Shown here: positions 8,358 to 27,327 of the stretch, piece after piece
Layout of the letters: the number at the start of each line of letters is the position of its first letter
Numbering within the stretch: position 1 is the stretch's first letter
Source: Haladaptatus caseinilyticus
Lineage (GTDB): Archaea; Halobacteriota; Halobacteria; Halobacteriales; Haladaptataceae
Direction of reading: 5' to 3'
Assembly (NCBI RefSeq): GCF_026248685.1
Contig: NZ_CP111040.1
Coordinates: forward strand, 1 to 64,000
Length of the DNA stretch: 64,000 nt
Position numbers and translations under genes: made by a program
Notes under the pieces: model-generated
Databases searched by the model: none
What the model saw: only the letters and a program-made list of their open reading frames with translations
Told to the model about the DNA's origin: nothing

Positions 8358-8744
8358 ATGGAGGAAGTCAGCACCGACGCCGCGCCGCCGAGTATCGGTC
8401 CGTTCTCGCAGGCGATTCTCGACGGCGACCGGATCTACGTCTCCGGTCAGGGACCGGTCGACCCGGAGACCGGCGACATCGTCGGGGAAACCATTGGCGA
8501 GCAGACGGCACGAACTCTCGAAAACATCGACGCAGTCCTTGCGGCGGCGGGGCGGTCACTCGATGACGTCGTAAAAGCGACCGTCTTCGTCCAAGATATG
8601 GCCGATTACGACGAGATTAACGATGTGTATGCGGAGTACGTCTCGTCACCGTATCCAGCTCGAAGCGCCGTCGAAGTGGCGGATTTACCCATCGATATCG
8701 GCGTCGAAATAGAGGTCGTTGCGAGCACTCGTGCGGAGGAGTAA
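8358..8744 (+). CDS. ridA: RidA/YjgF-YER057c-UK114 family enamine/imine deaminase
   Basis: A 128-residue RidA-family protein. RidA trimers hydrolyse reactive enamine/imine products released by PLP-dependent eliminases, liberating ammonia and a keto acid. The diagnostic arginine is Arg102 in SSPYPARSAVEVADLP, and GPFSQAI and YVSGQGPVDPETGD are typical of the fold. The start is supported by GGAGGG nine bases upstream. Glucose dehydrogenase follows seven bases after the stop, so they form an operon, and a SelA-like PLP enzyme lies just beyond. That context suggests RidA clears the imine released when the PLP enzyme removes an amino group from an amino-sugar acid. This is inference; housekeeping RidA activity is the alternative. 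Confidence 0.92.
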   Translation: MEEVSTDAAPPSIGPFSQAILDGDRIYVSGQGPVDPETGDIVGETIGEQTARTLENIDAVLAAAGRSLDDVVKATVFVQDMADYDEINDVYAEYVSSPYPARSAVEVADLPIDIGVEIEVVASTRAEE

Positions 8745-8751
8745 GAGGACA

Positions 8752-9819
8752 ATGAAAGCCGTTGCAGTTCGTCGTGATGAACCCGGACCACAGGTCGTGG
8801 ACGTGCCGAAACCACAACCCACGTCGGATGAAGCATTAATACGGACGCTCAGGGTTGGCATCGACGGTACGGACCACGAGGTAATCGAAGGGAGTCATGG
8901 CGGGTATCCGGACGATTCGGACTACCAGATACTGGGTCACGAGGCGGTTGGTGTCGTCGAAGAGCCGAATGGAACCCGGTTCGCGGAGGGTGATCTCGTC
9001 GTCCCGACCGTTCGGCGACCATTGGGAGAACCGAACGAATATTTCGACCGCGGTGAACCGGATGTCGCTCCGGATGGCACGTATCTCGAACGGGGAATCG
9101 TCGGTGCACATGGCTATATGGCAGAGTACTTCACCAGCCCGGCGGAGTTTCTTGTCAGTGTTCCTGACTCCTTTGCCGACACGGGATTTCTGGTCGAACC
9201 CATCAGCAACTCCGAGAAGGCCATCGAGTTCGCTCACGCGAGTCGGTCCGCGTTCGAATGGAACCCGAAGTCCGCGCTCGTCCTCGGCAACGGGCCGCTG
9301 GGGTTACTAACGCTGGCGATGCTCACCGAACACAATACGTTCGAGCGAACGTACTGCCTCGGGCGTCGTGATCGACCCGATCGGACGATCGAAATCATCG
9401 AGCGACTCGGCGCGACGTACGTGGATTCGCGTGAAACCCCCGTCTCCGACATTCCGAACGTGTACGGGCCGATGGATTTCATCTACGAAGCAACGGGCTA
9501 TGCACCACACGTCTTCGAGACGGTGAGCGCACTCGCGGCGAACGGTGTCGCCACGCTGCTCGGAATTCCGAGCGATCACGCGTTCGAAGTCGATGGCGGC
9601 CGCCTCCATCGAGAGTTAGTACTCCGGAACAAAGCACTACTCGGGAGCGTCAATTCGAACGTCCGCCATTTCGAGGCTGCAAAAACGTCGCTCGCGGAAT
9701 TTCCGGACTGGTTTACGGACGAGTTGATTACCGGGGTGTACACCCCTGAAAATGCCGATCGGGCGTTCGAAACCGGCGACAACGTTATCAAAACTGTCGT
9801 CGAATTCGATACACTGTAG
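8752..9819 (+). CDS. gdh: Glucose 1-dehydrogenase-like zinc-dependent MDR enzyme
   Basis: A 355-residue medium-chain dehydrogenase closely resembling haloarchaeal glucose dehydrogenase (the Haloferax mediterranei type), which oxidises the anomeric carbon of glucose with NAD(P)+ in the semi-phosphorylated Entner-Doudoroff route. Asp38 (VGIDGTDHE), His63 and Glu64 (ILGHEAVGVV) and a Glu at about 149 (FLVEPISNSEKA) fit the known catalytic zinc ligands. The nucleotide fold contains LVLGNGPLGLLTLAM. The ATG at 8752 is chosen because MKAVAVRRDE is the family N-terminus; an in-frame upstream GTG would overlap ridA. The neighbouring RidA and SelA-like enzyme make glucosamine or another hexosamine a plausible substrate, giving glucosaminate. 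Confidence 0.9.
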   Translation: MKAVAVRRDEPGPQVVDVPKPQPTSDEALIRTLRVGIDGTDHEVIEGSHGGYPDDSDYQILGHEAVGVVEEPNGTRFAEGDLVVPTVRRPLGEPNEYFDRGEPDVAPDGTYLERGIVGAHGYMAEYFTSPAEFLVSVPDSFADTGFLVEPISNSEKAIEFAHASRSAFEWNPKSALVLGNGPLGLLTLAMLTEHNTFERTYCLGRRDRPDRTIEIIERLGATYVDSRETPVSDIPNVYGPMDFIYEATGYAPHVFETVSALAANGVATLLGIPSDHAFEVDGGRLHRELVLRNKALLGSVNSNVRHFEAAKTSLAEFPDWFTDELITGVYTPENADRAFETGDNVIKTVVEFDTL

Positions 9820-9823
9820 CGGG

Positions 9824-11035
9824 CTATGGTTCGGCCTGCGCCGTGATTCGTTCGACAGCGTACGTTGCTTCATCGTCAGTGAGACACATCGGATTCACCG
9901 TGAACTCGCCCGCTGGAAGGGCGTCGGCACCGACGAAAACGCGGGGCTCCTCACTGCGGAGGCCGCCGACAATGTCGGTGGCCGTGACACCTGCGGCCTC
10001 GGCATCTACCGACACGACGACCTCCGGCGCGACTGCAGTTTTGTCGTCGGCTGTAAGAGAGGTTTCGAAACCGTCAATGGTGTCCAGTTCGGCCGCGATT
10101 CGCTGCGAACGGTCGAGCCATTCGGCAGCGCGGGCATCATGATCCTCCTCGATGAAAAGCGAGAGTGCACGAATCAGCCCGACGAGCTCCTCCTTGCCAA
10201 CTTTCATCGAGCGACCGATTCCCTGTCTAGGGACGCCGCCGAGCTGGGTCGGATCGACGAGTGCAGGTGCCGGTTCCCACACCTGCTCCGCGGCGTGCAT
10301 GTCCAGATGCTGGGCGGCTACCGACTCGATCAAGTCCTGACGGCCGGCAAGTATCCCGGTGGTTTGCGGGCCGCGAATCGCTTTACCGCCGCTGAACGCG
10401 ACGAGGTCGGCGCCCGCTTCGGTGAACGTCGAGAGGTTGCTCACCGGGGGCAGTTCGGCGGCAGCATCCACGATGACCGGAACGTCGTTGTCGTGTGCGA
10501 TTTCACAGACAACGTCGAGTGGTGGTTCGGTGTAGGATTTCTCCATATACGCGACCGCCGCCGTGTCCTCGCCGATGGCGTCTTCGATTTCCCACGGTTC
10601 GACGTTGCGCGATCCGGTACCGAGATGACGGTCATTCGTTCCCACATCTACGATACGTGCGCCCACCGCTCGGAGTGCATGGTCGTAACCCGTTCGGTGC
10701 GTTCTGGGCATCACGATTTCGTCCGGCACGCCCTCCGTCTTCGGTAGCCGCGCCATCACACCGAGGTCATCAGCCGCGATGCAGGCGGCCGCGCCGAGCG
10801 CAAGCGCGCTCGACGCACCGGACGTGACGTAGCCTGCGTCCGCACCGGTTGCCTTGGCGATCAACTCGCTCGCTTTCGCCTGGAGGTCGGAGAGACGGAC
10901 GAAGGCGTCCGATGCGCGAGCCATCGCCTCGACGGCCTCTGGGTGGATTCGACTGCCGCCAATTCGCGTTTTGGTTCCGGTCGCGTTGACGACGTGTGGG
11001 ACGCCCAACTCCTCGTAGATAGTCTCGCGTGGCAT
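9824..11035 (-). CDS. SelA-like PLP-dependent enzyme (possible amino-sugar-acid ammonia-lyase)
   Basis: A 403-residue fold-type I PLP enzyme of the SelA-like / D-glucosaminate-6-phosphate ammonia-lyase group. The Schiff-base lysine is Lys218 in FSGGKAIRGPQTTG, and the PLP-contacting Asp190 is in VPVIVDAAAELPP. TSGASSALALGAAACIA binds phosphate. VVNATGTKTRIGGSRI is the family N-terminus. Haloarchaea do not need SelA (selenocysteyl-tRNA is absent, and archaea use SepSecS), so a sugar-acid eliminase is likelier. Convergent with gdh (four bases apart) and divergent from the next gene. A TATA-like CTATTTAG on the minus strand at about 11061-11068 suits leaderless initiation at 11035. The substrate is inferred from context. 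Confidence 0.8.
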   Translation of the reverse strand: MPRETIYEELGVPHVVNATGTKTRIGGSRIHPEAVEAMARASDAFVRLSDLQAKASELIAKATGADAGYVTSGASSALALGAAACIAADDLGVMARLPKTEGVPDEIVMPRTHRTGYDHALRAVGARIVDVGTNDRHLGTGSRNVEPWEIEDAIGEDTAAVAYMEKSYTEPPLDVVCEIAHDNDVPVIVDAAAELPPVSNLSTFTEAGADLVAFSGGKAIRGPQTTGILAGRQDLIESVAAQHLDMHAAEQVWEPAPALVDPTQLGGVPRQGIGRSMKVGKEELVGLIRALSLFIEEDHDARAAEWLDRSQRIAAELDTIDGFETSLTADDKTAVAPEVVVSVDAEAAGVTATDIVGGLRSEEPRVFVGADALPAGEFTVNPMCLTDDEATYAVERITAQAEP

Positions 11036-11179
11036 ACGCTATCCTCACACAGCTTGCACTAAATAGATTCGACTGGACAACCGTCCCACGGCTGTTATCG
11101 GTTCCTCCGGGCTTCGATACACCAACCACCACCGATACGTTCATGTCCTGCGAGTGAGCATCGATACCAAGCCACGAAT

Positions 11180-12184
11180 ATGCCCGACACCGAAAGCGGA
11201 GCAAGCTATTTCGGCGTACAGGACCCCGAACACGCGGTTGCGGACCTCGAACGATTCCGGGACGAGGGATTAGACGCCGTTCTCCACACGTTCAGCGAAC
11301 GTGATCAAGCGTTCTACCGCGAAACGATGGCGGACATCGTCGCCGCAAGCCACGACCATTCGCTTACGGTCTACGTCAATCCGTGGGCGGTCGGCGGCGT
11401 CTTCGGCGGCGAGGAGTTCTCACGGTTCGTCGCCCACAACCCTAACAGTCGGCAGGTTCTCAGCACCGGGGAGCGCGTGCCAGCCGCCTGCTTTAACGCC
11501 CCGGCGTTCCGTGAATTCATGCACGAGTGGACCCGCGATGCCGCCGGACTCGGTGCGGATGTGCTCTTCTGGGACGAACCGCACTGGCATAACGTTCACT
11601 GGTACGGCGACGACCATCCACGAGATGTGTGGTGCTGTCGCTGTACCCATTGCCGCGACGGCTATCGCGAGCGATATGACGAACCGATGCCCGCCACCGA
11701 GACGGAAGCAGTCTCGACGTTTCGGGAGGAGTCGATGCTCGACTTTCTGGACGAAATGATGGCACTAACACGCGAGGAAGGCGCGGAGAACGCGGTCTGT
11801 CTTATGCCGAGTCAGTCAGCCGACCACGGACCGCGAAACTGGGAACGACTCGCCGAAAACGAGCATCTCGACGTGCTCGCCACCGATCCCTACTGGGACG
11901 CCTTCGCGGAGGACGCCGACCCGGAAGCCTACGTCTCACAGTTCGGAACGGAACTGGTCGAACTCGCCGATGAACACGGGTTGCGAAGCCAGCTCTGGAT
12001 ACAGGGGTTCGGATTGAAGGGGGAATCGGCGACAGACGAAGTTCGAACTGCCACACGAACCGCGCTCGACCTCGACGCCGACAGCATTTTTATGTGGGGC
12101 TACGACGGCTGTCGAACCATTTCCGAAATCGCCTGTGAAGAACCGATGGCCGTCTGGGAGGCGTATTTGGACGAGGTCAACTGA
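11180..12184 (+). CDS. Uncharacterised TIM-barrel, glycosidase-like protein with Cys cluster
   Basis: A 334-residue protein with the alternating pattern of a TIM barrel and no signal peptide. Acidic strand-end motifs such as DVLFWDEPHWHN (about residues 125-136) resemble glycoside hydrolase catalytic strands, where WDEP would carry the acid/base or nucleophile. It is followed by a cysteine cluster, WCCRCTHCRDGYRERY, a hallmark of several uncharacterised glycoside-hydrolase-like families. Further strands include LDVLATDPYW, QLWIQGFG and SIFMWGYDGC. A related architecture recurs at 27359-28534. I do not recognise a characterised homologue. Context suggests hydrolysis or processing of a sugar in the amino-sugar pathway. 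Confidence 0.7.
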   Translation: MPDTESGASYFGVQDPEHAVADLERFRDEGLDAVLHTFSERDQAFYRETMADIVAASHDHSLTVYVNPWAVGGVFGGEEFSRFVAHNPNSRQVLSTGERVPAACFNAPAFREFMHEWTRDAAGLGADVLFWDEPHWHNVHWYGDDHPRDVWCCRCTHCRDGYRERYDEPMPATETEAVSTFREESMLDFLDEMMALTREEGAENAVCLMPSQSADHGPRNWERLAENEHLDVLATDPYWDAFAEDADPEAYVSQFGTELVELADEHGLRSQLWIQGFGLKGESATDEVRTATRTALDLDADSIFMWGYDGCRTISEIACEEPMAVWEAYLDEVN

Positions 12185-12430
12185 TCGGTGACCACGAACG
12201 ACGTGGTCGATAACATGATTCCACGCGTCAGGAGACCATCCCACGACAACAGTTCCTTCGGTACCCAATGTAGCATACAGTCGATTGTGTAAATGAACGG
12301 ATCTCCGTCGTCATAGTCATCAACGGCGAGAAACGAGTCGTTCTGAACTCTCACCCCCAACTCGCCGGCAAACATGACGTTTGTTATTGTTAGAATATCA
12401 TCTCAGTATCATATGATCCCATTGTCCGTC

Positions 12431-13255
12431 TCAGAACGGAAACAATCGTGCTTTCTCGTCGGCAGTGAGTTGCTTACCGTACTCGCTCGCTTCAAACGCC
12501 TCCGCATAGCAAACGTGCTCGCCATCGGCACCGTATCGTTCGACGAGGTCGTCGCGGTAGCGGTCCGCTACGTTCGAAAGGGCCTCGACATGCGGCAGTC
12601 CACCCTCGCGTAACCACTCGAGTCGTTCGTCGGGGTCGTCCGGAACCTCGCCGAGCGTCCCTTCGACCGATGGCAACCATTCGTACATCTGAGATTCGTG
12701 GCAATCAAGCATCTTGAACTTTCTATCGGCGGTATCGTCGATATCGATGACGACATCCGGCGAAAAGGGATACGGACGCTCGAATGTATCACTCATGTAC
12801 GCAAAGACGGGATTTTCGTCGAGTGCGGGCGTTCCCGGACGAATCTTCGGCACCGCGACTAAATACGCCGCGTCCCGGACGAGCTGTGCCGTATACCGGT
12901 GGTCCGGGTGGTAATCGTTCGGACGATGAGTGAGGACGAGGTCGGGGCGAAACTGGCGGATACGTTCGATGAGCCGCCCTCGATTTTCGAGCGATGGTTG
13001 GAGTTTCCCGTCCGGAACGTCTAGCGTCTCGAACTCGGCATCAGCGACTGCTGCTGCAGCTTTTCCTTCCTCGTATCGGCGACGTATCAGCTCTCGACCT
13101 CCGAGACCGTGGTGTCCAGCTTCGCCATTTGTCATCGAAACGAAGCGTACGTCATGGCCGTTGTCGGAATATTTACACGCGATGCCGCCCGCTTTGAGGT
13201 CGCAGTCATCGGGATGAGCACCGACGACGAGAACCCGTATTGATTCCCTCGACAT
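12431..13255 (-). CDS. PIG-L/LmbE family zinc deacetylase
   Basis: A 274-residue PIG-L superfamily enzyme. Family members remove N-acetyl groups from GlcNAc-containing sugars using a single zinc. The metal and catalytic motif AHPDD (GAHPDDCDLKAG, residues 12-23) and the distal HPDH (RPNDYHPDHRYTAQL) are both present, as is the MTNGEAGHHG loop. It starts at 13255, where a minus-strand TATA (CTTATACAA, about 13277-13285) is some 26 nt upstream, consistent with a leaderless message. In this neighbourhood the likely substrate is GlcNAc or MurNAc, giving free glucosamine or muramic acid for oxidation by the nearby dehydrogenase. The family is certain; the substrate is inferred. Confidence 0.9.
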   Translation of the reverse strand: MSRESIRVLVVGAHPDDCDLKAGGIACKYSDNGHDVRFVSMTNGEAGHHGLGGRELIRRRYEEGKAAAAVADAEFETLDVPDGKLQPSLENRGRLIERIRQFRPDLVLTHRPNDYHPDHRYTAQLVRDAAYLVAVPKIRPGTPALDENPVFAYMSDTFERPYPFSPDVVIDIDDTADRKFKMLDCHESQMYEWLPSVEGTLGEVPDDPDERLEWLREGGLPHVEALSNVADRYRDDLVERYGADGEHVCYAEAFEASEYGKQLTADEKARLFPF

Positions 13256-13276
13256 CGATTCATAAGAGACGATTCG

Positions 13277-13333
13277 ATTGTATAAGCTCTCCGAACTGTT
13301 GGCTGACGAAATCGCCGCCGTACGGAATTATTT
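13277..13333. promoter_or_regulatory. Divergent promoters of the PIG-L and enolase-family genes
   Basis: Two TATA-like elements lie in the 102-base gap. One is on the minus strand at about 13277-13285 (TTATACAA), 26 nt before the PIG-L ATG. The other is on the plus strand at about 13325-13332 (ATTATTTG), 29 nt before the ATG at 13358. Both spacings predict leaderless mRNAs, and the shared gap suggests common control. Confidence 0.5.
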
Positions 13334-13357
13334 GTAGGTCGAGTTCGAGGAATACAT

Positions 13358-14473
13358 ATGTCGATTACGGACGTGTCAGCCATCCCAGTAGAGATGGGCG
13401 TCAAACCACTCGAATCGGAACTTGGCCTCGCACCCTACGTGAGCAACCACGATAGTGTCGAATCGGTTACGAGAATGCTCGTCAAAGTCAAAACGGACGA
13501 GGGTGTGACCGGTTGGGGCGAGATGCTCGTCGGAATGAAATCCGCCGCGGTGACGAAAGCGGTCATGGACGACGTGATCGCTCCCGAACTCGTGGGTCGT
13601 GAGGTCGGCGAAATACGCAATTTCGTTGAGTCGTTTTACTTCCCATACGTGAAAGTCCGACCGTTCCTCGGAGCCGTCGAAACCGCACTCTGGGACGCGT
13701 TCGGCAAGCAGGTTGGTGTTCCTGTCCACCAACTACTTGGCGGCAAGACCCGCGAAAACGTACCAATAGCGACCTGTCTCGGCATCCTCGGCCCCGAAGA
13801 GTCACGCAATTACGCCAATCGAGCGGTCGAGCATGGATTCACGACGTTGAAAACGAAAGCCGGACCGGATTGGCGCGAGGACGTCGAACGGATTCGTGCG
13901 ATGCACGACGAAGTGGATGGTGAATTGGAGTTTCGACTCGATCCCAATCAAGGATGGGCGTTCGAGGACGCGGTTCGCGTCGCTACTCGGCTCGAGGAGG
14001 AAGGGATCTTGCTCCAGTATCTGGAGCAACCGGTTCGAATCGATACGTATGGAACGTATGCCTCGCTCCGAAACCGTGTCCGAACGCCGATTGCAGTCAA
14101 CGAGGATACCTACTTCCCGCGAAACCTCCGCTACCTACTCCAAGCCGACGCCATCGACGTAGCCGTCGTTGATCTCGTCCCTGCTGGTGGTATCCTCCGC
14201 GTCAGAGAGCAAGTCGCGATGGCGGCAAACGCGGGTGTCTCGGTATCACACCACTGTGGGTTCGACCTCGGCGTCAAGACTGCTGCCATGCTCCACACTG
14301 TAGCGAGCACGCCTGGAATCAATCTCCCCCCGGATAGCGTCTACTACGGATGGGATGACTACATCATCGAGGAGCCGTTCGAAGTCGAAGACGGAGCCCT
14401 TTCAGTGCCCGACGAACCGGGGCTCGGGATAACGGTGGACGAGGAGAAGGTAGAACAGTATCGATGTGATTGA
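13358..14473 (+). CDS. Enolase-superfamily (mandelate racemase/muconate-lactonizing type) enzyme
   Basis: A 371-residue enolase-superfamily protein; members abstract the proton alpha to a carboxylate, commonly dehydrating sugar acids. The second-strand KxK motif is Lys165-Thr-Lys167 (TTLKTKAGP). Metal ligands are Asp195 (FRLDPNQGW), Glu223 (YLEQPVR) and Glu249 (VNEDTYF), and the final-strand base is probably His in SVSHHCGFDLG (near 301). An acid-sugar dehydratase such as gluconate/galactonate dehydratase fits a pathway feeding 2-keto-3-deoxy sugar acids, but epimerase or cycloisomerase activity cannot be excluded. It is convergent with the ABC operon, with only two bases between stops. The family assignment is firm, the reaction unknown. 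Confidence 0.88.
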   Translation: MSITDVSAIPVEMGVKPLESELGLAPYVSNHDSVESVTRMLVKVKTDEGVTGWGEMLVGMKSAAVTKAVMDDVIAPELVGREVGEIRNFVESFYFPYVKVRPFLGAVETALWDAFGKQVGVPVHQLLGGKTRENVPIATCLGILGPEESRNYANRAVEHGFTTLKTKAGPDWREDVERIRAMHDEVDGELEFRLDPNQGWAFEDAVRVATRLEEEGILLQYLEQPVRIDTYGTYASLRNRVRTPIAVNEDTYFPRNLRYLLQADAIDVAVVDLVPAGGILRVREQVAMAANAGVSVSHHCGFDLGVKTAAMLHTVASTPGINLPPDSVYYGWDDYIIEEPFEVEDGALSVPDEPGLGITVDEEKVEQYRCD

Positions 14474-14475
14474 GA

Positions 14476-15606
14476 TCAGTCACTTTCGGCCGCACTGCTC
14501 GGGGGAGGGGACCCTTTTTCGTCTTCGAGCGGTTCGCTCTGCCAATAACTGTGCGTGTCTTCGTGCCGGAAGCACGCCGTTCGTCGTCCGTCGCCATCGT
14601 GGTCAGTGAGTGAGGGGCAGGCCTTCGTACACGCCGTCCGCGCCTCTGGGCAGCGCGTATGGAATCGACATCCAGACGGTGGATCGACGGGGTCGGGAAT
14701 ATCGAGCGATCGAACCGGCGGTTCCGGGACGCTATCAGAACGATTTCGGAGATCGGAAGTCGCCCAGAGCAACACCTTCGTGTAGGGATGCTGTGGGTCG
14801 TGAATTATCTGTTCGGGGGTTCCGATTTCCACGAGTTCGCCGAGATACATGATGCCGATTCGGCCATTCGCTCGCTGTGTGAGATGCTTTGCGTTGGCGA
14901 GATCGTGTGAAATGTACAGATAGGACGTGTTGAACTGCTCTTGCAGTTCGAGCATGAGGTCCATCATCTCGGCACGAAGCGATACGTCGAGCGCACTGAT
15001 GGCCTCGTCCGCGAGGATGAGGTCGGGATTCATCAACAGAGACCGAATGAGGGCAACGCGTTGCTGTTCGCCGCCGGAAAGCTGGTGTGGATATCGCTTT
15101 GCGTAATCCTTCGCTGGGGACATTCCCACGTACTCGAGCAACCCGTAGATCCGGGCACGGCGGTCGGCTTCGCTCATCTCCGGTTGCCAGCGTTTTAGTG
15201 GTTCGGCGAGACTCGATTCGACGGTGTAGTTCGAGTTCAACGAACTGCCGGGGTCCTGGTGAATCATCTGGAGCGACCGCCGTATTTCCTGGGGCGAGTA
15301 CTCACCCTCTGCCTGTTTCCCGCCGAACAGCCCACCGGACTCCTTCGTCTCCCAAATGTCCTGCCCTCGGTACAACACGCGACCGTCCGTCGGACGCTGA
15401 ACGCCGATAGCAGTCTTACCAAGCGTCGTCTTTCCACAGCCGGATTCGCCAACGAGGGCGACGATATCGTTCTCGTACAGGTCGAGGCTTACATCATCGA
15501 CGGCGTGGACGGTTTCGGAACCAGCGAGCCCGAACAGGCGCTCTTTCTCAAAGTGAACGCTCACGTTTTGCATGGACAACAGTGGTTCACCGCGGTTGTC
15601 TGTCAT
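14476..15606 (-). CDS. Opp/Dpp-type ABC transporter ATP-binding protein (OppF-like)
   Basis: A 376-residue ATPase of the oligopeptide/dipeptide (Opp/Dpp) class, last gene of the importer operon. Walker A is GESGCGKTTLG, the signature HQLSGGEQQRVAL, and Walker B LILADEAISALDVS (most relatives have DEPTSALD). The H-loop is ISHDLANAKHL. The C-terminus has the Opp/Dpp cysteine motif CRFHTRCPEA...CTKACP. A lineage insertion, GLFGGKQAEGEYS, follows Walker A. It overlaps the upstream ATPase gene by ATGA. With its partner it should power import of peptides, muropeptides or amino-sugar oligomers. Confidence 0.92.
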   Translation of the reverse strand: MTDNRGEPLLSMQNVSVHFEKERLFGLAGSETVHAVDDVSLDLYENDIVALVGESGCGKTTLGKTAIGVQRPTDGRVLYRGQDIWETKESGGLFGGKQAEGEYSPQEIRRSLQMIHQDPGSSLNSNYTVESSLAEPLKRWQPEMSEADRRARIYGLLEYVGMSPAKDYAKRYPHQLSGGEQQRVALIRSLLMNPDLILADEAISALDVSLRAEMMDLMLELQEQFNTSYLYISHDLANAKHLTQRANGRIGIMYLGELVEIGTPEQIIHDPQHPYTKVLLWATSDLRNRSDSVPEPPVRSLDIPDPVDPPSGCRFHTRCPEARTACTKACPSLTDHDGDGRRTACFRHEDTHSYWQSEPLEDEKGSPPPSSAAESD

Positions 15607-16718
15607 CGCCGGTCACCCCCATGAGTCTCAGTAACGCTTTCCATCGAATCCGTCGATTCATCAAGCAGCAACGGAATGGTTTCACGGGCTTCCTCCCAGT
15701 GGAAACAAGCGACATCGTGGCCGGAATCCACATCCCGCAGCTGTGGGTTTTCCGACGTGCACATCCCATCCGCGAGCGGGCATCGTGGGTTGAACGAACA
15801 CCCCCGTGGAAGCGTTACGGGGTCGGGACTCGATCCATCGATACCATCGACTTCCATCTCGCGGTCGGAGATGTTCGGGACAGCATTGAGCAACGCACGG
15901 GTATACGGGTGTGCTGCATGGTCGAGAACGTCGTCCGTTGGACCGAGTTCGACGAGTTCGAATGCATACATCACCGCAAGTCGGTCCGCGAGGTCGGCGA
16001 CCAACGGCAGATCGTGGGTGACGAATACCATCGTCAAGTCGTATTTTTCCTGCAGGTCTTCCAACATGCTGATGATGGAGCGTTGCATGAGAAGGTCGAG
16101 TGCCGCGGTCGGTTCGTCCATCACGACGACGTTCGGGTTCAAAACGAGGCCAAGCGCGATAAGGGCGCGCTGTTTCATCCCGCCGGATAGCTCGTGGGGA
16201 TGTGAGTGCAATACCTGTTCGATGGGCAGATAGAGGTCGGCGAGGAGTTCTCGGGCGAACTCCATACCGGCCGCAACATCGGCGTCGTGTGCCCGGAGTG
16301 TCTCCTCGAAGTGACTACCGATAGTCATCGTCGGATTGAACGCGCTTTGAGCGCCCTGGATGACGAACGAAATCTCGTTCCAGCGGAGTTTCGTGAGTTC
16401 CTCACGGGAAAGGGAAAGGATGTCAACCGGCGAACCCTCCGGCGGATGATAGATGATCTCGCCCTCGACTTGTCCCGGCGAAACGACGGCATCCAACATC
16501 GCAGAGGCAAGCATCGATTTTCCGGAACCGCTTTCGCCGACGACGCCGAGCACCTCGCCTGCGCGAACGTCGATGCTGACATCACGGAGGACACGAGAAT
16601 CACCGCGATCCATGCTGAACGAGACGCTGGTATCCCGTATCTCCAAGATAATGTCTCCGTCCGGCGGACCCTCCGCATCTGAAGTGGGGCGGGATTCAGT
16701 CGCCATTCCTACCTCCAT
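15603..16718 (-). CDS. Opp/Dpp-type ABC transporter ATP-binding protein (OppD-like)
   Basis: A 371-residue Opp/Dpp-class ATPase. Walker A is GESGSGKSMLAS, the signature HELSGGMKQRALI, Walker B VVVMDEPTAALD, and the H-loop VTHDLPLVADL. The C-terminal motif GCSFNPRCPLADGMC is typical of OppD/DppD and may hold an iron-sulphur cluster in some relatives. Start is uncertain between ATG 16718 (GAGGAG about ten bases upstream) and ATG 16706, which also has GGAGGT close by. Ends overlapping the oppF-like start. A 123-base gap separates it from the small membrane-protein gene upstream. Confidence 0.92.
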   Translation of the reverse strand: MEVGMATESRPTSDAEGPPDGDIILEIRDTSVSFSMDRGDSRVLRDVSIDVRAGEVLGVVGESGSGKSMLASAMLDAVVSPGQVEGEIIYHPPEGSPVDILSLSREELTKLRWNEISFVIQGAQSAFNPTMTIGSHFEETLRAHDADVAAGMEFARELLADLYLPIEQVLHSHPHELSGGMKQRALIALGLVLNPNVVVMDEPTAALDLLMQRSIISMLEDLQEKYDLTMVFVTHDLPLVADLADRLAVMYAFELVELGPTDDVLDHAAHPYTRALLNAVPNISDREMEVDGIDGSSPDPVTLPRGCSFNPRCPLADGMCTSENPQLRDVDSGHDVACFHWEEARETIPLLLDESTDSMESVTETHGGDRR

Positions 16719-16841: not shown

Positions 16842-17090
16842 TTAGGTGTAATTGATGAGTCGAAGTCCGAGATGGCCGATAATCGCGTAGACGAACGCGC
16901 TTGTACCCCAGATAGCGAACATCCCGGCAAGGACGCCGTGCGTTAGCGACGGGAGAACGTGCGTCGAGAGGAGAACGGCCAACAGGCAACAGATGACGCC
17001 CATCGCCGTGATGAACGCAAGGAACGACTGCCTGATGGCAAGCAGAACGGACACCGTTCGTCCGTTCACGGCCGATAAGCGGGTGCTCAT
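16842..17090 (-). CDS. Small membrane protein inside the Opp operon
   Basis: An 82-residue hydrophobic protein with two or three predicted membrane helices: about 22-44 (FLAFITAMGVICCLLAVLL) and 50-78 (VLAGMFAIWGTSAFVYAII). Its ATG overlaps the stop of the oppC-like gene (ATGA), so it is co-translated with the permease and is very likely real. Opp/Dpp operons do not normally encode such a protein. It may be an accessory subunit stabilising or regulating the permease. No known family is recognised. Confidence 0.72.
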   Translation of the reverse strand: MSTRLSAVNGRTVSVLLAIRQSFLAFITAMGVICCLLAVLLSTHVLPSLTHGVLAGMFAIWGTSAFVYAIIGHLGLRLINYT

Positions 17091-18142
17091 GTGTCACCAC
17101 CACCGGCGGCCGTCTCGTGACGGGAGCGAAGTCGGACGTTGAACACCCTATCGAGGCCCTGCGCGAGCAGGATGAATCCAAGCGAGATGAGGATGATGAG
17201 TGCCATCGGAACGAGGAGCCAGTGAATCTGATCGGGGTTCGTCAAGTCCGCATTGCTGTAGGCCTTGTCCATCATCACGCCCCAATTGAGCGTCGAGTGG
17301 GGGAGGATACCAAGGAAGTACAGGGCGATCGACTCGAAGATGATGTTTCGCGAGCTGTTCGCGAAGTTCACCGAGATGTACGGCATCAGGTTCGAAATGA
17401 TGTCCTTGCGAAGGATACGAGTCTCGGATAAGCCCATGATACGTGAAGCTTCCGTAAACGACTCCTCGCGGATACTCAGCACCTGCGAACGCACGGTTCG
17501 GGCCAACCGTGGCCAGTTGTCGATACCGAGGATGAGTCCGACGACGAGCGGCTGTTCGGGTTGGTAGATGCTCGCCAGCACGATTACCAGTGCGATACCG
17601 GGGATCGTGAGTACGACATCGGTGATCGACATCAACACGTAATCGGTTCGGCCGCCGCGATAACCCGCGACCGTCCCAATAACCGTTCCGAGACAGACCG
17701 AAAGTAATGCACCTGCTAAAATCATCTGCAGCATTGCAGGAGTCGCGTGGACGACCTGTTTCAAAATCGACTTCCCCATCACGCCCGTTCCAAGCGGATA
17801 CTCCCAATTGGTGAATGGCGGGACGAATATCGGCCCTTCCATGACGCTGGCTTCTGGAATGAGGTAGACTCCAACGGTACCCATCACAACGAATCCAAGC
17901 AGGATGAGCGAGCCGAACAGTGCCCGCCAATCGTTGAGCAGAACCGCCACCGGCGCATAGATGCGGCGCTCGAACGTTCTTCGAGCCTTTTCACGCGGTG
18001 TCAGTTCGGGAACGTTCGCTGTCTGTGTGAAAATGCTCTCGTCTACCGGACCGGCGGAACCGGAGTGGCCGCTCGTCCCACCATCCGTGCGTGGGGGCGA
18101 ACAGTCCGAGCCAAGATCGTTTGCGTCATCAGTAGGCTTCAC
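17087..18142 (-). CDS. Opp/Dpp-type ABC transporter permease (OppC-like)
   Basis: An inner-membrane permease of about 351 residues from the GTG at 18142 (364 from the ATG at 18181). I prefer 18142 because TCCCTCCT at 18149-18156 (AGGAGGGA on the coding strand) is six bases upstream. It still overlaps the oppB-like gene by 14 bases. An N-terminal hydrophilic segment precedes the first helix (LFGSLILLGFVVMGTVGVYL), as in OppC/DppC. The EAA-type cytoplasmic loop is TEASRIMGLSETRILRKDI, which docks to the ATPases. The residue pattern matches substrate importers for peptides or oligosaccharides; specificity depends on the lipoprotein encoded at 19756-21708. Confidence 0.9.
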   Translation of the reverse strand: MKPTDDANDLGSDCSPPRTDGGTSGHSGSAGPVDESIFTQTANVPELTPREKARRTFERRIYAPVAVLLNDWRALFGSLILLGFVVMGTVGVYLIPEASVMEGPIFVPPFTNWEYPLGTGVMGKSILKQVVHATPAMLQMILAGALLSVCLGTVIGTVAGYRGGRTDYVLMSITDVVLTIPGIALVIVLASIYQPEQPLVVGLILGIDNWPRLARTVRSQVLSIREESFTEASRIMGLSETRILRKDIISNLMPYISVNFANSSRNIIFESIALYFLGILPHSTLNWGVMMDKAYSNADLTNPDQIHWLLVPMALIILISLGFILLAQGLDRVFNVRLRSRHETAAGGGDT

Positions 18143-19154
18143 GGTCACTCCCTCCTTTGACTCGGGGATCGATGACCCCATACGTCAAGTCCGCAACGAG
18201 AATCCCTAACAGTGTAATGCTGGTGAAGAAGATGAACGCACCCATGATGACCGGATAATCACGATTCAACAGTGCGTTGAACGTTACGAGTCCCATTGCG
18301 GGATAGTTGAAAATCGTCTCCAAGATGATTCCACTTCCGAAGATACTCGCGATACCCATCATGATACTTGTGTAGATGGGTAAGAGCGCGTTCCGACCAA
18401 CGTAGCGAATGGCGATTCGCCCCTGACTGATGCCACGGAGCTGTGCGACCCGAATATAGCCTTCACCCATCTCACGGATACAGTTGCCGCGGAACGCTAA
18501 CGCACCCCCGAATCCCGCGATAAACGACGAGAGGACGGGCAGCGCCGCATGTTTAACGACCCCGATGATGAACGGGAGGTTGAGACCTGGCGTCGTGTTC
18601 GGGTCCATCCGACCGCCACTCGGCAGCCAGCCGAGATAGAACGAGAAGACGATGAGCGAGAGGATGGCGACGATGTAGTACGGAACGGTGGTATTAGCAA
18701 TGGAGAAAATCGTCATTCCGGTGTCGAATTTGCTCCCCTCGTTGTACGCCATGACCGCGCCGAACAGCAAGCTGACGGTAGTCCCGAGCGCAAGTCCGTA
18801 GATGCTGATGAAAATCGACCACGGCATCGCTTCGAACAGGATATCGAAGACAGGTCGGTTTTTGAATATTGACCGTCCAAAATCCTGGTACAGGACGATA
18901 TCCCGCAGATAATGATAGTACGAAACGTACCACGGTTGATTGGGGTCGATTCCGGTGTAGGTCTCGACCATTGCGTTGATACGCGCCATCTGCTGCGGTG
19001 ATGGACTCTCACCCTGCTCTAGCATCTGTTGCATCAGATGGATTTTGACCATCTCGATGGGACCGAATGGGAGCATCCGGTACAGGGCGAACGTTACTGT
19101 CAGTGCGAGGAAAAACACCAGCACTGACTGGCCGATCCGCTTCGAATAATACAT
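18129..19154 (-). CDS. Opp/Dpp-type ABC transporter permease (OppB-like)
   Basis: A 341-residue permease, first gene of the importer operon. I take the ATG at 19154 (MYYSKRIGQSVLVFFL), the classic OppB/DppB start with a first helix directly after a short basic segment; the open frame extends 103 codons further upstream but that part is not OppB-like and overlaps the zinc-ribbon gene. A long external loop follows helix 1, containing DPNQPWYVSYYHYLRD and DFGRSIFKNRPV. The EAA loop is MGEGYIRVAQLRGISQGRI. Transcribed leftwards with oppC, the small membrane protein, oppD and oppF. The lipoprotein gene is a separate unit on the same strand further upstream. Confidence 0.9.
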   Translation of the reverse strand: MYYSKRIGQSVLVFFLALTVTFALYRMLPFGPIEMVKIHLMQQMLEQGESPSPQQMARINAMVETYTGIDPNQPWYVSYYHYLRDIVLYQDFGRSIFKNRPVFDILFEAMPWSIFISIYGLALGTTVSLLFGAVMAYNEGSKFDTGMTIFSIANTTVPYYIVAILSLIVFSFYLGWLPSGGRMDPNTTPGLNLPFIIGVVKHAALPVLSSFIAGFGGALAFRGNCIREMGEGYIRVAQLRGISQGRIAIRYVGRNALLPIYTSIMMGIASIFGSGIILETIFNYPAMGLVTFNALLNRDYPVIMGAFIFFTSITLLGILVADLTYGVIDPRVKGGSDREAY

Positions 19155-19755: not shown

Positions 19756-21708
19756 TTACTTGGTTTTCGCGCTGACGTGCCCCTTCATCAGGAACTCCAT
19801 CGAGTTCGAGAAGTGTTCCGCCTTTGTCCCCTCCGCGTTCGGGTGGTCATCGGCCTCTGCGGTGGGGAAGTTGAACTTACTCGTGTCACCCCAGAACGCT
19901 CTCGTCTCGTCGTAGAAGCCGATATGTGGAACTTGCCAATTCGTGTACCACATGAGCTTCTTGGTGAGATCTTTGACTTCCTTCGTGGACTGCGTCTGGG
20001 ACATGATGTTGTTCCATTTGACCGGGTTCAACGTTTGTTTCGAACCGCCGTTCCCCTTCTGTCCAACCTTTTTCGGGAACTTCGCTCGGATGGGATGGTT
20101 CAGTTTGTTGCTCCGATCTTGCGAAAGATCGGGCATACTACGGTTTACTTTGCAGTTGCCTTTCGCCTCACTCTTATTCACAATTTCGTCGTACTTCCCG
20201 ATACCTGCCACGCTGAGGGTCGAATACGCATTTGCCGGGTGTGACGTATCGGAGAACCAGTTGACCATGTCGAAGTCGTGTGTGTCCGTCCAGCGTTTCC
20301 AAAAGCCGCTGCTTGACGGGATGACAAGTTTGTTATCGAAACCAAACTCCTTGAGTTTGGGACTCATGTAGTTCCCGATGGTTTCGTAGATGTTCCACGG
20401 CGGGGTCAGATAGGTGAGCCCCTCGACTCGACTACCGTTCGGACCGACCCAGACGTTTCCATCCTTCGAGTAGCCAGCGTTTTCGAGGACCTGTTTCGCT
20501 TTTTGTGGCTTCGAATTGCGTCCGTAGGTGATGAGTTTGTTCCGGAAACCGTCGTCGACCCATTGTTTCGTCGCCTTGGATGACATTCCGGTGACGGTAT
20601 CACGGGATTCGTAGTTCAGGCCCTGTGTGCTTTTGATGACTTGAACGAGTTCATCGTGATCGATGAGGTAGGCGATAGCCCGGCGAACCGGACGGCGGGC
20701 GAGATGTTCGTTGTTCCAGTTCATCGAGAGTTTGACAATGCTGGACGTACCGAACCGATTGAACACGTCCACCTTGCTGCTGGATTTTGCCTGATTTACC
20801 GTCTTGTCACCCATGTCGAGCTGGTCGGCTCTAAGCGACTGAATCGCCTTTTGCTTCTCGGAGATGAGATGCCAGTTGAACGTCTTTAGGTTCGTCCAAT
20901 CGGCTCGGGGGTGATCCTCGTACTTCTCGTGAACGGCGTTAGTTGGCGAAAGTTGTGTTGGCTTCCAGAGACCACAGCCGAGTCCCTTCTCAGTCAGGTC
21001 GTTCAGCGTGATGTTCTCCTCTTCCAGTTCCTTCGTTACCTCCTTGATAGCCTCCTCGCTTCCCGCATCCTCGTACTTCTGCAGCCACGATTTGAAGTAG
21101 TCGTGTTTGACGGCGATAGAAAGGTACGAAGACTTCTGCAGGGACGGATTGGCCGGTCCCGAAAGTTTGTGTTTGAGGGTGTATTTGTCCACGATCTCCC
21201 AGCTATCGTCGGTATTCTCCGGGCCGAGATCCACGCGATAGTCACTGATGAGATACGCCGTATGAAGGTCCTGTGCAGTCACGGGTGTACCATCCCACCA
21301 CGTGTAGTCCTCGTTGAGCTTTATTTCGACTTCACAGCCGTCTCCTTTGATATTGACTTCATCCGCGAGCCAATACATCGGTTTCCCATGGGCGTTGGGA
21401 TACACTGGAGACTCCCACCAGATGTAATCCATCCAAAATTCCGTATTTTTGGTGCTCGTGAACGGGTTGATGTTCGCTTTGCTCGGTTGCCAGCTGACCG
21501 GCGCACGCATATGGAGTTCCGTTGTGACGGGCGTTCCATCGCCGTTCGATGTGTTGGAACTCATCGTTACGTCCGGGTCATTGGGGTTGTTCCCGCCACA
21601 ACCGGCCAGACCAGCCATCGTCGCACTCCCGCCGAGCGCGAGCCATTGTCGTCGTGTCAGGCGGTTCCCCTGTGGATCACCGCTAGAACCGTGGTTGCTG
21701 TTAACCAT
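19756..21708 (-). CDS. ABC importer substrate-binding lipoprotein, family 5 (Opp/Dpp)
   Basis: A 650-residue extracytoplasmic binding protein (SBP family 5). The N-terminus has a Tat signal, RLTRRQWLALGGSATMAG, ending in the lipobox LAGC, so it is exported folded and anchored by lipid. Mature features include YTWWDGTPVTAQDLHTAYL, a standard family 5 motif, and RRPVRRAIAYLIDHDELVQ. I start at the ATG at 21708; longer readings run into non-coding-like sequence. It lies just upstream of the permease/ATPase operon on the same strand, separated by two small genes on the other strand. Family 5 proteins bind peptides, murein peptides or chito-oligosaccharides, so muropeptide or GlcNAc-oligomer binding is plausible here. 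Confidence 0.9.
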   Translation of the reverse strand: MVNSNHGSSGDPQGNRLTRRQWLALGGSATMAGLAGCGGNNPNDPDVTMSSNTSNGDGTPVTTELHMRAPVSWQPSKANINPFTSTKNTEFWMDYIWWESPVYPNAHGKPMYWLADEVNIKGDGCEVEIKLNEDYTWWDGTPVTAQDLHTAYLISDYRVDLGPENTDDSWEIVDKYTLKHKLSGPANPSLQKSSYLSIAVKHDYFKSWLQKYEDAGSEEAIKEVTKELEEENITLNDLTEKGLGCGLWKPTQLSPTNAVHEKYEDHPRADWTNLKTFNWHLISEKQKAIQSLRADQLDMGDKTVNQAKSSSKVDVFNRFGTSSIVKLSMNWNNEHLARRPVRRAIAYLIDHDELVQVIKSTQGLNYESRDTVTGMSSKATKQWVDDGFRNKLITYGRNSKPQKAKQVLENAGYSKDGNVWVGPNGSRVEGLTYLTPPWNIYETIGNYMSPKLKEFGFDNKLVIPSSSGFWKRWTDTHDFDMVNWFSDTSHPANAYSTLSVAGIGKYDEIVNKSEAKGNCKVNRSMPDLSQDRSNKLNHPIRAKFPKKVGQKGNGGSKQTLNPVKWNNIMSQTQSTKEVKDLTKKLMWYTNWQVPHIGFYDETRAFWGDTSKFNFPTAEADDHPNAEGTKAEHFSNSMEFLMKGHVSAKTK

Positions 21709-21808: not shown

Positions 21809-22654
21809 ATGGCTTTCAGCGCAGACAGTCGACATACCGATGTCGCCATCGTCACCGGTGCGGCAAAGGGTATCGGACGTGCCGTTGCGAAACGATTTGC
21901 CGACGCGGACATGACCGTAATTGTTGCAGATGTGGACAACGAGGGCAGCGAGCGGACGGTTGCGGAGATCGAGAACGAAGGCGGCACCGCCGAGTTTGTC
22001 CCGACGGACGTCAGCAATCCAAGCGACGTCGCGACGATGGTCGAAGCGACGATGGAGCGACACGGGAGCGTCGATATTCTCGTGAACAACGCGGGCGGGT
22101 CGTTTGACGATGGAAACGTCGCCGACGTGGCGACCAACACGTGGGATAGAATCATCGATATCAACCTGAAGGGACAGTTCCTCTGTGCCCGGGAAGTACT
22201 CCCGGCGATGGTCGAATCGGGTGGCGGTTCGATGGTTCACATCTCGTCCGTTAACGCGCGACTCGGTATCGGCCTGGTTTCGTATTCCGCCGCGAAAAGC
22301 GGTATTCTCGCGCTTTCTCGGCTCGTGGCGACCCAGTACGGCAGACACGGCGTTCGCTCGAACGCGATCTGCCCGGGAAGCATCATCACTGATGCATCGA
22401 GCGAGAAGCTGACGACCGAGGGACCGGTTCGAGAGGAATGGATAAACCAGTATCCTGTCGGTCGATTCGGTCGCCCCGAAGACGTGGCCGCTGCTGCATT
22501 TTATCTGACGTCCGAAGAAGCATCGTTCGTTACCGGCACCGAGCTCGTCGTCGATGGCGGCCTCACCGCCGGACTCGACCAGCAGTTGGAGACGATGATG
22601 TACGATATCGACGAACCGCCGACGCGTCACCACGAGAGCGACCAGGGCGAATGA
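21809..22654 (+). CDS. Short-chain dehydrogenase/reductase
   Basis: A 281-residue classical SDR that oxidises or reduces a hydroxyl/keto group with NAD(P). The cofactor motif is VTGAAKGIGRAVAKR, with Asp in VADVDNEG suggesting NAD preference. NNAG is at DILVNNAGG, the catalytic serine in VHISSVN, and the YxxxK pair in YSAAKSG. The C-terminus extends about 25 residues beyond the usual end. Divergent from the lipoprotein gene and followed by GNAT and AnmK genes on the same strand. Its substrate is unknown; a sugar or lactate-derived alcohol would fit the context. Confidence 0.88.
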   Translation: MAFSADSRHTDVAIVTGAAKGIGRAVAKRFADADMTVIVADVDNEGSERTVAEIENEGGTAEFVPTDVSNPSDVATMVEATMERHGSVDILVNNAGGSFDDGNVADVATNTWDRIIDINLKGQFLCAREVLPAMVESGGGSMVHISSVNARLGIGLVSYSAAKSGILALSRLVATQYGRHGVRSNAICPGSIITDASSEKLTTEGPVREEWINQYPVGRFGRPEDVAAAAFYLTSEEASFVTGTELVVDGGLTAGLDQQLETMMYDIDEPPTRHHESDQGE

Positions 22655-22708: not shown

Positions 22709-23701
22709 ATGACCGCCGAGTTCCGCCAACTGACCGACTACGATAGCATTCGTGTCGGCATCGACTGCTGGAATCGCACCTATCCGTCCTTCGCCATCCC
22801 GGGGCGGGTAGCGGTACAGAACGTCTTTGCCCCCTTCACCGGGGTCGATGTAACGGCATGGGGTGGTTTCGAGGACAATACGCTCGTGGCGTTCGCGCTC
22901 GGAAAGCGGCTTACGACGTCGATTCCCGAATATACGGGTTCCGAACAGGGATGGATAAGTCTGTTCGCTGTGGATCCGGCAGTCGAGAATCGAACCAATG
23001 TTTCTCAAAAACTGCTCGCGACGGTCGAGCGCGACATGACGGATTTTGGCGTCTCCCGACTCCGTTTTGGCGGTGACCCCGGGCATTTCCTCCCCGGTGT
23101 CCCGACCGAGCTGGACGACCTTCGGAAGACGCTCCGTCAAAACGGGTTCGGCATCGACAGGACGTTTCACGACCTCCGAGGTACCCTCACGGAATACGAA
23201 TCACCCCCACGAATCGCCGACGTTGCCGACTCGTGGCCGGAGTTGGCGCTCGAACGGGTCGGAGCGGACGCGAAACCCCTTCTCGAATTCCTGTCCGACC
23301 AGTTCCCGGGTCGCTGGAGCTACGAGGCGGAGAACTTCGTCCGTGTTCCTGGTGGGGCTTCGGAGTACTGGCTCCTCCGAAACGAGGGAGAAACGGTCGG
23401 CTTCGCCCGGACGAACACGCCGAATTCAGCGTATCGCGGTGGGAACGTCAACTGGGCGGACCGACTCGACGGAACCGTCTGCGGACTTGGCCCGCTCGGC
23501 GTTCACGAATCGTATCGCGGTCGTGGATGGGGACTCTGGTTGGTCGCGTCGCTCACCGAACGCTATCGCGACGCGGGATACGACCACATGATCATCGACT
23601 GGACCGACCTCGCCGAATACTACGGTAAGCTCGGCTTCGAACCGTGGCTCACCTACGAAACGGTCACGAAAGAACTGCGGGCGACAAAGGGGGCGGCGTG
23701 A
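22709..23701 (+). CDS. GNAT N-acetyltransferase, probably two-domain
   Basis: A 330-residue protein with GNAT features at both ends. The C-terminal half has the acetyl-CoA pyrophosphate loop GVHESYRGRGWGLWLVASL (the R/Q-x-x-G-x-G/A type) followed by YYGKLGFEPW. The N-terminal half (ISLFAVDPAVENRTNVSQKLL) looks like a degenerate copy. TATA-like AATTATAAG at about 22675-22683 precedes the ATG by 30 nt. Its TGA overlaps the GTG start of anmK, so the two are translationally coupled and probably act together. It might acetylate an amino sugar or peptide-derived amine, or protect against toxic amines. The exact role is unknown. Confidence 0.8.
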   Translation: MTAEFRQLTDYDSIRVGIDCWNRTYPSFAIPGRVAVQNVFAPFTGVDVTAWGGFEDNTLVAFALGKRLTTSIPEYTGSEQGWISLFAVDPAVENRTNVSQKLLATVERDMTDFGVSRLRFGGDPGHFLPGVPTELDDLRKTLRQNGFGIDRTFHDLRGTLTEYESPPRIADVADSWPELALERVGADAKPLLEFLSDQFPGRWSYEAENFVRVPGGASEYWLLRNEGETVGFARTNTPNSAYRGGNVNWADRLDGTVCGLGPLGVHESYRGRGWGLWLVASLTERYRDAGYDHMIIDWTDLAEYYGKLGFEPWLTYETVTKELRATKGAA

Positions 23702-25405: not shown

Positions 25406-26086
25406 CTACGAATCCGCTGTGACACCCGGGAGGTCGGGGAGGACTGTGAGTGACGTTACCTCGTAGGTCGGATCTTCGGGAAGATCGTATTCCGTTCGAT
25501 GCGACCGGCGAACGAACACCGAATCGAGACCAGCGGCGTGGGCAGCACGAACGTCACATGCACTATCCCCGACGTACAATCCGTCCGTTACGTCGAGGTC
25601 CGCCATTGCGCGTTCGAGATAGTACGTGTCCGGCTTCGTTCGTTCGAATCCTTCGACCGTCGGTTTGCGGCCGTATACCGTCTCGAAAAGGTGAGCAAAC
25701 TCGAAATATTCGAGCATGTATTCGACGGTTGCGTGTTGGTTGCTGCTGATAACACCCATTGCGTGGTGTTCAGCGAGGTCAAAAAGAACCGAACAATCGT
25801 CGTATGGTACTCGCTCGCCACAATCCATCATTCCACATTGAAGGCTCGACGTGTTTGCTTCGCGCTCCGGCCAAAACCTGGTGAAGTCGACGCCGAGATT
25901 ATCACACACGCGACGCATATCCTCGATCGTCGCACCCGCGATAAACGCGTCTACGTCGGCAGTCGATGGAGAAATGCCAAACGCATCGAACGTCTCCTCG
26001 ACAGCCTGCCGATAGGCGGTCGGATGCTCCGGATGGAAGTCGAGAAGGACGCCATCGACATCGAACAACAGCGAATCATACGTCAT
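25406..26086 (-). CDS. HAD-superfamily phosphatase (phosphoglycolate-phosphatase/MupP-like)
   Basis: A 226-residue HAD subfamily IA hydrolase. Motif I is LFDVDGVLLDF (nucleophile and acid aspartates), motif II GVISSNQHATV, the lysine in ERTKPDTYYLERA, and motif IV YVGDSACDVRAAHAAGL. The ATG at 26086 begins directly at MTYDSLLFDVDG; the open frame extends nine codons upstream. It is divergent from the AmiE-like gene. Bacterial MupP, a HAD phosphatase of similar size, removes the 6-phosphate of MurNAc-6-P made by AnmK. A similar role here is attractive because of the neighbourhood, but HAD substrates cannot be read from sequence. Confidence 0.85.
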   Translation of the reverse strand: MTYDSLLFDVDGVLLDFHPEHPTAYRQAVEETFDAFGISPSTADVDAFIAGATIEDMRRVCDNLGVDFTRFWPEREANTSSLQCGMMDCGERVPYDDCSVLFDLAEHHAMGVISSNQHATVEYMLEYFEFAHLFETVYGRKPTVEGFERTKPDTYYLERAMADLDVTDGLYVGDSACDVRAAHAAGLDSVFVRRSHRTEYDLPEDPTYEVTSLTVLPDLPGVTADS

Positions 26087-26181
26087 TGTGTTGTTTATTC
26101 CGTGTGAAGTCACAAATAGATTGTTCTCCCATGTTCGACAGGCAGAGTAGTTAAGACGGTTCGCAACCCTCGTTCAGCGGA

Positions 26182-27228: not shown

Positions 27229-27327
27229 GAATGGGGAATTTAGGGGTGATATGACGGGAGCATCGTCATCGAAGCGTAACCGAAGGAAGACGCAAGAGCG
27301 AACTGGATTCTTGCCACGGCCGGGGAA

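Follow-up and report, generated by a model that had tools for sequence, protein, structure and literature searches.

The question raised by the locus at positions 8358-14473 of the window analysed here (the whole stretch of 64,000 nucleotides, positions 1-64,000 of the forward strand of contig NZ_CP111040.1 of Haladaptatus caseinilyticus, assembly GCF_026248685.1) is whether its metabolic genes serve one pathway and, if so, from where the substrate for this pathway is derived. An initial annotation of this DNA had proposed a non-phosphorylated oxidative route for N-acetylglucosamine (GlcNAc), in which a PIG-L deacetylase, a glucose dehydrogenase (GDH) and a SelA-like enzyme dependent on pyridoxal phosphate (PLP), assisted by RidA, lead to 2-keto-3-deoxygluconate (KDG), and in which an enolase-superfamily enzyme (ENO) treats the deaminated or lactyl sugar acid. 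Based on the results described below, we consider it probable (roughly 0.6) that the segment 8358-13255 encodes an oxidative and probably phosphate-free amino-sugar branch, which is the sugar outlet of a larger peptidoglycan-scavenging island, and that ENO serves the muramic side of this island. The features of the locus are as follows:

8358-8744, + strand: RidA-family imine/enamine deaminase (PF01042; TIGR00004 152.8 bits, cut-off 106.25; PAR motif with the RidA active-site Arg)
8749-9819, + strand: cluster-type glucose(amine) 1-dehydrogenase of the MDR family, GDH (PF16912 311 bits; 2B5V, E 4e-151; Asn at position 154)
9824-11035, - strand: SelA/DgaE-like PLP enzyme (DGA), putative glucosaminate ammonia-lyase (7LC0, DGL, E 5e-49; K218)
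11180-12184, + strand: H334, a 334-residue TIM-barrel glycosidase-like protein without Pfam or NCBIfam match, in an intact open reading frame between the PLP and PIG-L genes
~12226-12387, - strand: remnant of a PF07090 GATase1_like gene (tblastn, 52% across the 46-residue C-terminus, plus a 15-residue N-terminal match)
12431-13255, - strand: PIG-L/CE14 de-N-acetylase, putative GlcNAc or oligomer deacetylase (PF02585 102 bits; HPDD motif at residue 14)
13358-14473, + strand: ENO, an enolase-superfamily MR_MLE protein (PF13378/PF02746; MR-type active site)

All five of the families named in the initial annotation (RidA, GDH, SelA-like PLP enzyme, PIG-L and enolase) are present at these positions, as seen from profile and structure matches, and the convergence of a RidA-GDH pair with the PLP gene is also confirmed, the RidA and GDH genes being on the same strand with a spacing of 4 bp and the ends of the GDH and PLP genes being likewise 4 bp apart. 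What this inventory had overlooked were H334, the decayed PF07090 gene and the surrounding island. The arrangement of these genes exceeds chance, because the order Rid-GDH/PLP/H334/(PF07090)/PIG-L/ENO/Opp is retained entire in Haladaptatus and Halorussus and because partner genes are found near the PLP gene across 30 genera, where the chance expectation for such neighbours is ~0.5% per gene copy. In our sample of 146 genomes of the order the PLP enzyme is present in 37, and of the 59 named haloarchaeal loci that were counted around its gene, 41 have a PIG-L in the vicinity, 33 a Rid and 29 a GDH; several loci that lack the cluster GDH have a different zinc dehydrogenase (ADH2) adjoining the PLP gene. 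Two of the loci, from Natrarchaeobius chitinivorans (L094 and L095), match a published chitin cluster that is compared below. A further variant of the module is seen in other haloarchaea (L110, L115, L120 and L127), where the neighbours of the PLP gene are a hydrolase of the FAH family and a window-type PIG-L, and in one instance (G102:C3; L043 and L074) the module is present twice on one contig in near-identical copies, reflecting either a recent duplication or an assembly artefact.

Of the individual enzymes, the GDH provides good evidence, at the level of its sequence, for a role separate from that of the housekeeping enzyme. The closest solved structure to it is 2B5V from Haloferax mediterranei, and the Zn ligands D38, H63 and E150 as well as the Glu_dehyd_C domain (PF16912) are conserved. 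In a tree based on 49 GDH sequences, a single branch (support 97/92) parts the cluster-linked from the housekeeping enzymes, and in a quick FastTree analysis rooted on the Sulfolobus and Thermoplasma enzymes the housekeeping clade (support 0.96) is nested among the cluster ones; the window GDH, which carries N154 and Q59, falls outside the housekeeping clade of 18. All 29 cluster GDHs carry Asn at position 154 (2B5V numbering), which lies four residues away from the zinc ligand E150, whereas all 18 housekeeping GDHs carry Ile there; the outgroup residues are Asp and Asn. The case for a separate role rests on this split in the tree, on the difference between N154 and I154, and on the retention of a housekeeping GDH copy elsewhere in the same genome. 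Glucosamine oxidation is the role that we would assign to the cluster enzyme. A review covering the H. mediterranei enzyme names only Glu64 and Glu150. The difference at position 154 between the two types of GDH is a new observation, which supplies a diagnostic residue.

The PLP enzyme is related to DGL/DgaE (7LC0), with which it shares the PLP fold family, the PLP lysine and the core motifs. However, it does not reach the curated cut-offs for DgaE (209 against 600 bits and 210.9 against 385.3 bits for the two models). An alignment of 63 haloarchaeal and 16 bacterial or other archaeal sequences was compared with DGL, and in all of these the PLP lysine (K218) is invariant and aligns with the lysine of DGL. 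An insertion of ~28 residues is common to the 63 haloarchaeal sequences but absent from DGL, and at the positions of R24, R114, D118 and H119 in the haloarchaeal enzymes, DGL carries I, N, T and S, respectively. Both the insertion and these four residues recur in the majority of the 16 relatives from bacteria and other archaea. Judged by these characteristics, the PLP enzymes constitute a sister subfamily distinct from DgaE, which we count among the new results of this work.

For the PIG-L protein, the nearest solved relatives include the archaeal diacetylchitobiose deacetylase 8bgn and PH0499 (3we7). Its identification as a bacillithiol deacetylase was considered and not adopted, as the BshB1 model gives 127 bits against a cut-off of 182.5 and the setting is sugar-catabolic. 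The AlphaFold2 model of H334 (pLDDT 87) is a TIM barrel, for which Foldseek retrieves GH14/GH20/GH42-type barrels from several glycosidase families with none clearly best; all 14 genomes with H334 also have the PLP enzyme. The feature at 12226-12387 is, from comparison with related loci, taken to be a decayed pseudogene, as an intact 242-residue PF07090 gene occupies the same spot in Haladaptatus and Halorussus relatives (e.g. L039:6729-7457, beside H334).

The enzymes of the canonical route are lacking at curated cut-offs. In 23 genomes no protein above cut-off was found for NagA (TIGR00221) or MurQ (TIGR00274), and NagB (TIGR00502) gave no match, this search being one in which the SIS-type archaeal glucosamine-6-phosphate deaminases were not sought. 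The matches seen for MurQ were short, scored <37 bits and lay mostly within open reading frames of ~600 residues or more resembling GlmS, and the control genomes behaved as expected. This absence of canonical NagA, NagB and MurQ is also counted among the new results.

The region downstream of the locus provides a context which the account in the initial annotation had omitted and which would provide the substrates for the pathway. Its features are:

14476-16718, - strand: ATPases OppF and OppD of an Opp/Dpp ABC transporter (PF00005 and PF08352)
17087-19154, - strand: Opp permeases OppC and OppB, the start of OppB being approximate (PF00528 for OppC; synteny for both)
19756-21700, - strand: Opp solute-binding lipoprotein, start approximate (PF00496)
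21809-22654, + strand: SDR dehydrogenase, possibly for C1 oxidation of N-acetylmuramic acid (MurNAc) or a sugar (NF005559 'glucose 1-dehydrogenase' 235.6, cut-off 215; adjoins AnmK in relatives)
between the SDR and AnmK genes: GNAT protein
23644-24870, + strand: AnmK, anhydro-N-acetylmuramic acid kinase (NF007148 463.6, cut-off 387; PF03702)
25406-26113: HAD hydrolase (generic HAD matches only)
26182-27228, + strand: serine beta-lactamase-fold hydrolase (PF00144; retained in NamZ loci)
27206-28534, + strand: U442, a 442-residue TIM-barrel protein with a Cwp19-like fold (AlphaFold2 pLDDT 80.5)
28592-29758, + strand: NamZ, exo-beta-N-acetylmuramidase, GH171 (PF07075 264.4 bits and PF20732 160.6 bits, both above curated cut-off)
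29765-31402, + strand: GH3, NagZ-like beta-N-acetylhexosaminidase (NF003740 233.1, cut-off 207)
31441-32268, - strand: creatininase-family amidohydrolase (PF02633)
32384-33556, + strand: Tat-exported GH18 (PF00704; TAT_signal just under cut-off)
33655-34416, - strand: IclR-family regulator (PF01614/PF09339; retained in NamZ loci)

Taken together with the locus, these genes are best read as a peptidoglycan-scavenging island with an oxidative amino-sugar branch inside it. The N-termini of NamZ and GH3 appear, by eye, to be cytoplasmic, whereas GH18 has a Tat signal, and this distribution would fit the import of fragments followed by their internal breakdown. U442, for which no Pfam match (including to the GHL10 domain) was found, is conserved beside NamZ or ENO, and its best Foldseek match is Cwp19 (5oq3, E 1e-10), although a TMq of 0.58 is weak when taken alone and beta-amylases are close behind. 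Cwp19 is a lytic transglycosylase making anhydro-muramoyl ends (PMC6016235), and due to this a Cwp19-like activity of U442, suggested by the likeness of fold only, would supply AnmK with its substrate. The HAD protein at 25406-26113 was also considered as a MupP-type MurNAc-6-phosphate phosphatase, for which all of the specific models score far under cut-off. The creatininase family represented in the island (31441-32268) is also seen in loci from bacteria (L144, L150, L152 and L154; Chloroflexi and others), where its members adjoin genes for homologues of the PLP enzyme. In the window no RNA families or tRNAs were found, its repeats are limited to short matches at chance level, and a scan for promoters and terminators gave signals at or below shuffled expectation, the promoter model being bacterial and the host archaeal.

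If ENO were a component of the GlcNAc route, as initially proposed, then its distribution should follow that of the PLP enzyme; this was not borne out, as ENO instead tracks NamZ and AnmK. Its orthologues (at least 67% identity, or 58% in the fragmented genome G013) are present in exactly 12 of the 146 genomes, and these are the same 12 that contain AnmK and NamZ, the three genes being within roughly 2-20 kb of each other where they are on one contig. The PLP enzyme is present in 11 of these 12, and in the other one (G104) ENO is in a row with IclR, U442, NamZ, Opp, the beta-lactamase-fold protein and AnmK. Fisher tests give p 1e-15 for ENO with NamZ and p 8e-7 for the PLP enzyme with NamZ, values which overstate the independence of the observations because 8 of the 12 genomes belong to one family. 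The active site of ENO, comprising K165/K167, D195, E223, E249 and a D272-H299 pair, is invariant in 14 orthologues, and in the alignment MR-type 3ozm has Asp at the place of D272 whereas racemases such as 2p88 have a lysine. By these residues ENO is assigned to the MR-type enzymes, and we consider that it probably acts in muramic-acid use, most likely as an acid-sugar lyase or epimerase on the muramic-acid side. Of the two activities suggested for it initially, that on a lactyl sugar acid is the more apt.

The substrates and reaction steps of the pathway are those which we infer from the observed gene identities, synteny, co-occurrence and residue differences. The Opp transporter would import cell-wall fragments, from which NamZ, GH3 and the Cwp19-like barrel would release GlcNAc, MurNAc and anhydro-MurNAc, with AnmK acting in the island. 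Deacetylation of GlcNAc, or of a short oligomer, by PIG-L would be followed by C1 oxidation of glucosamine by the cluster GDH, giving glucosaminate, from which the PLP enzyme would eliminate water and ammonia to form KDG, with RidA clearing the imine; KDG would enter the haloarchaeal Entner-Doudoroff route via a kinase encoded elsewhere, while ENO (13358-14473) would serve the muramic-acid side. Except for the step assigned to the enolase, the route initially proposed (PIG-L to GDH to PLP enzyme/RidA) fits well with the conserved gene set, the diverged GDH and PLP subfamily, and the missing NagA and NagB.

Several observations weigh against this interpretation. In 11 of the 59 named PLP loci none of PIG-L, Rid, GDH or ADH2 is found nearby, and because of these loci the PLP family may act on other substrates. 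Further, G104 possesses NamZ and AnmK and is without the PLP enzyme, the absence of canonical enzymes does not extend to the SIS-type deaminases mentioned above, and AnmK yields a 6-phosphate, which is hard to reconcile with a scheme entirely free of phosphate unless it is acted upon by a phosphatase, possibly the HAD protein at 25406-26113. The most likely of the alternatives is a phosphorylated version of the route corresponding to the scheme of PMC12343721, in which a kinase acts on glucosaminate and the PLP enzyme, similar to DgaE, converts glucosaminate-6-phosphate to 2-keto-3-deoxy-6-phosphogluconate (KDPG). The nearest characterised relative, DGL/DgaE, acts on a 6-phosphate (by the name of PDB 7LC0), AnmK is a sugar kinase within the island, and PfkB-family kinases exist in the genome. 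However, none of the latter is in the window and no kinase is present among the identified conserved neighbours, although one could be encoded elsewhere in the genome, and the PLP protein departs from DgaE in its sub-threshold scores, its insertion and its conserved polar residues. On balance this version appears unlikely to us, without being far-fetched.

The other alternatives are less probable. That ENO is an L-Ala-D/L-Glu epimerase for the peptides of muropeptides, with the sugar genes being a separate matter, could be suggested by the membership of such enzymes in the enolase superfamily and their function in murein peptide use, by the match to 1jpm (E 1.6e-33), and by the import of peptides by the island; however, K165/K167 are present but D272, paired with H299 as in 3ozm, replaces the second catalytic lysine seen in 2p88, and such an activity is improbable. 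About as improbable is a reading in which ENO and GDH form an additional Entner-Doudoroff branch of the ordinary kind, taking glucose via gluconate to KDG, with the PLP enzyme and PIG-L doing something else. GDH does have a true galactonate/gluconate dehydratase (ENO2, NF010624 587 bits) near it in chitin clusters, but the window ENO, which is ~28-29% identical to ENO2, belongs to a different subfamily (153 bits for NF010624, cut-off 311) and follows NamZ/AnmK rather than GDH; further, a housekeeping GDH exists elsewhere in the genome, and the cluster type is marked by a residue of its own at position 154. A chance neighbourhood of unrelated metabolic genes, which the alternating strands and the lack of a single co-directional operon might suggest, is scarcely credible given that the order is kept in several Haladaptatus and Halorussus species and the gene set across the order.

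The oxidative hexosamine route is published in outline, because work on Natrarchaeobius chitin clusters from 2025 has already proposed CE14 deacetylation, oxidation by GDH, phosphorylation by a kinase without an assigned gene, and a DgaE homologue leading to KDPG (PMC12343721). The Natrarchaeobius cluster shares with the window CE14/PIG-L, GDH, a DgaE-like PLP enzyme, RidA (termed there a RutC repressor), an enolase-type dehydratase and IclR, as well as the predicted intermediates glucosamine and glucosaminate. However, its dehydratase is of the galactonate-dehydratase (GAD) type, its PIG-L is of another subfamily, and it has a carbohydrate-type ABC transporter, chitinases and an assumed kinase, whereas the window has an Opp transporter, NamZ, AnmK, a different enolase and H334. 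The present route departs from that proposal in ending without phosphate and in giving RidA a metabolic role. An ending of this kind has been shown experimentally for the Ong pathway of Pseudoalteromonas (2022), where free glucosaminate is deaminated to KDG without phosphate and the RidA gene is essential (PMC9537276). As proposed for the window, a free amino sugar acid oxidised at C1 loses its acetyl and amino groups there to give KDG, and both clusters contain a RidA gene. However, the Ong pathway starts at the already oxidised GlcNAc1A, employs an unrelated deacetylase (OngB) and a D-amino-acid deaminase (OngC), and has KdgK in the cluster, whereas in the window the deacetylase is of PF02585, the deaminase is SelA-like and a PfkB kinase is lacking. 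For amino-sugar breakdown in chitin- or GlcNAc-using haloarchaea, the present work proposes a minimal set of genes along with a diagnostic residue, and it poses a testable choice between the free and the phosphorylated substrate.

The peptidoglycan setting is a more interesting result than the GlcNAc part, which was largely anticipated. Haloarchaea are without peptidoglycan of their own, and because of this the island would mean catabolism and not recycling. With bacterial peptidoglycan recycling it shares NamZ, AnmK and the NagZ-like GH3, all above curated cut-offs, but differs in that MurQ, NagA and NagB were not found at such cut-offs in the 23 genomes searched. On another contig of the same genome (C1; L250:1320-2327 and L251:1045-3192) there are three proteins, two of them M23 and one a glucosaminidase, each of which has tandem PG_binding_1 domains and a Tat-type N-terminus and is thus predicted to be secreted. 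The association of PG_binding_1 hydrolases with NamZ is not strict, as G000, G031 and G041 have both, whereas in G058, G074, G108 and G116 the PG_binding_1 domain is present without NamZ. The same domain combinations and Tat-type N-termini, known here from genes, are found in Woldo and Danwoldo of Halogranum salarium, archaeal peptidoglycan hydrolases which kill bacteria and for which a scavenging role was left open (PMC12352652). That work concerns killing, whereas the window island bears on feeding, and in the literature searched, with subscription literature outside its scope, no paper on peptidoglycan catabolism in haloarchaea was found.

A more far-reaching proposal, which is tentative and in our judgement a distinct possibility but doubtful, is that archaea of the Haladaptatus/Halorussus type feed on bacterial peptidoglycan oxidatively and without MurQ. 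C1-oxidised muramic acid would, according to it, lose its C3 lactyl ether by beta-elimination, through the action of either ENO or the PLP enzyme, to yield KDG, ammonia and lactate; if the PLP enzyme is the actor, then it would expel lactate instead of water. With either enzyme the elimination would replace MurQ. Together with the secreted M23 and glucosaminidase proteins, this would make these archaea consumers of bacteria. The lack of MurQ suggests that muramic acid is stripped of its lactyl group in a new manner, and the presence in one genome of a conserved import-and-catabolism island along with these hydrolases bears on whether archaea feed on peptidoglycan (PMC12352652).

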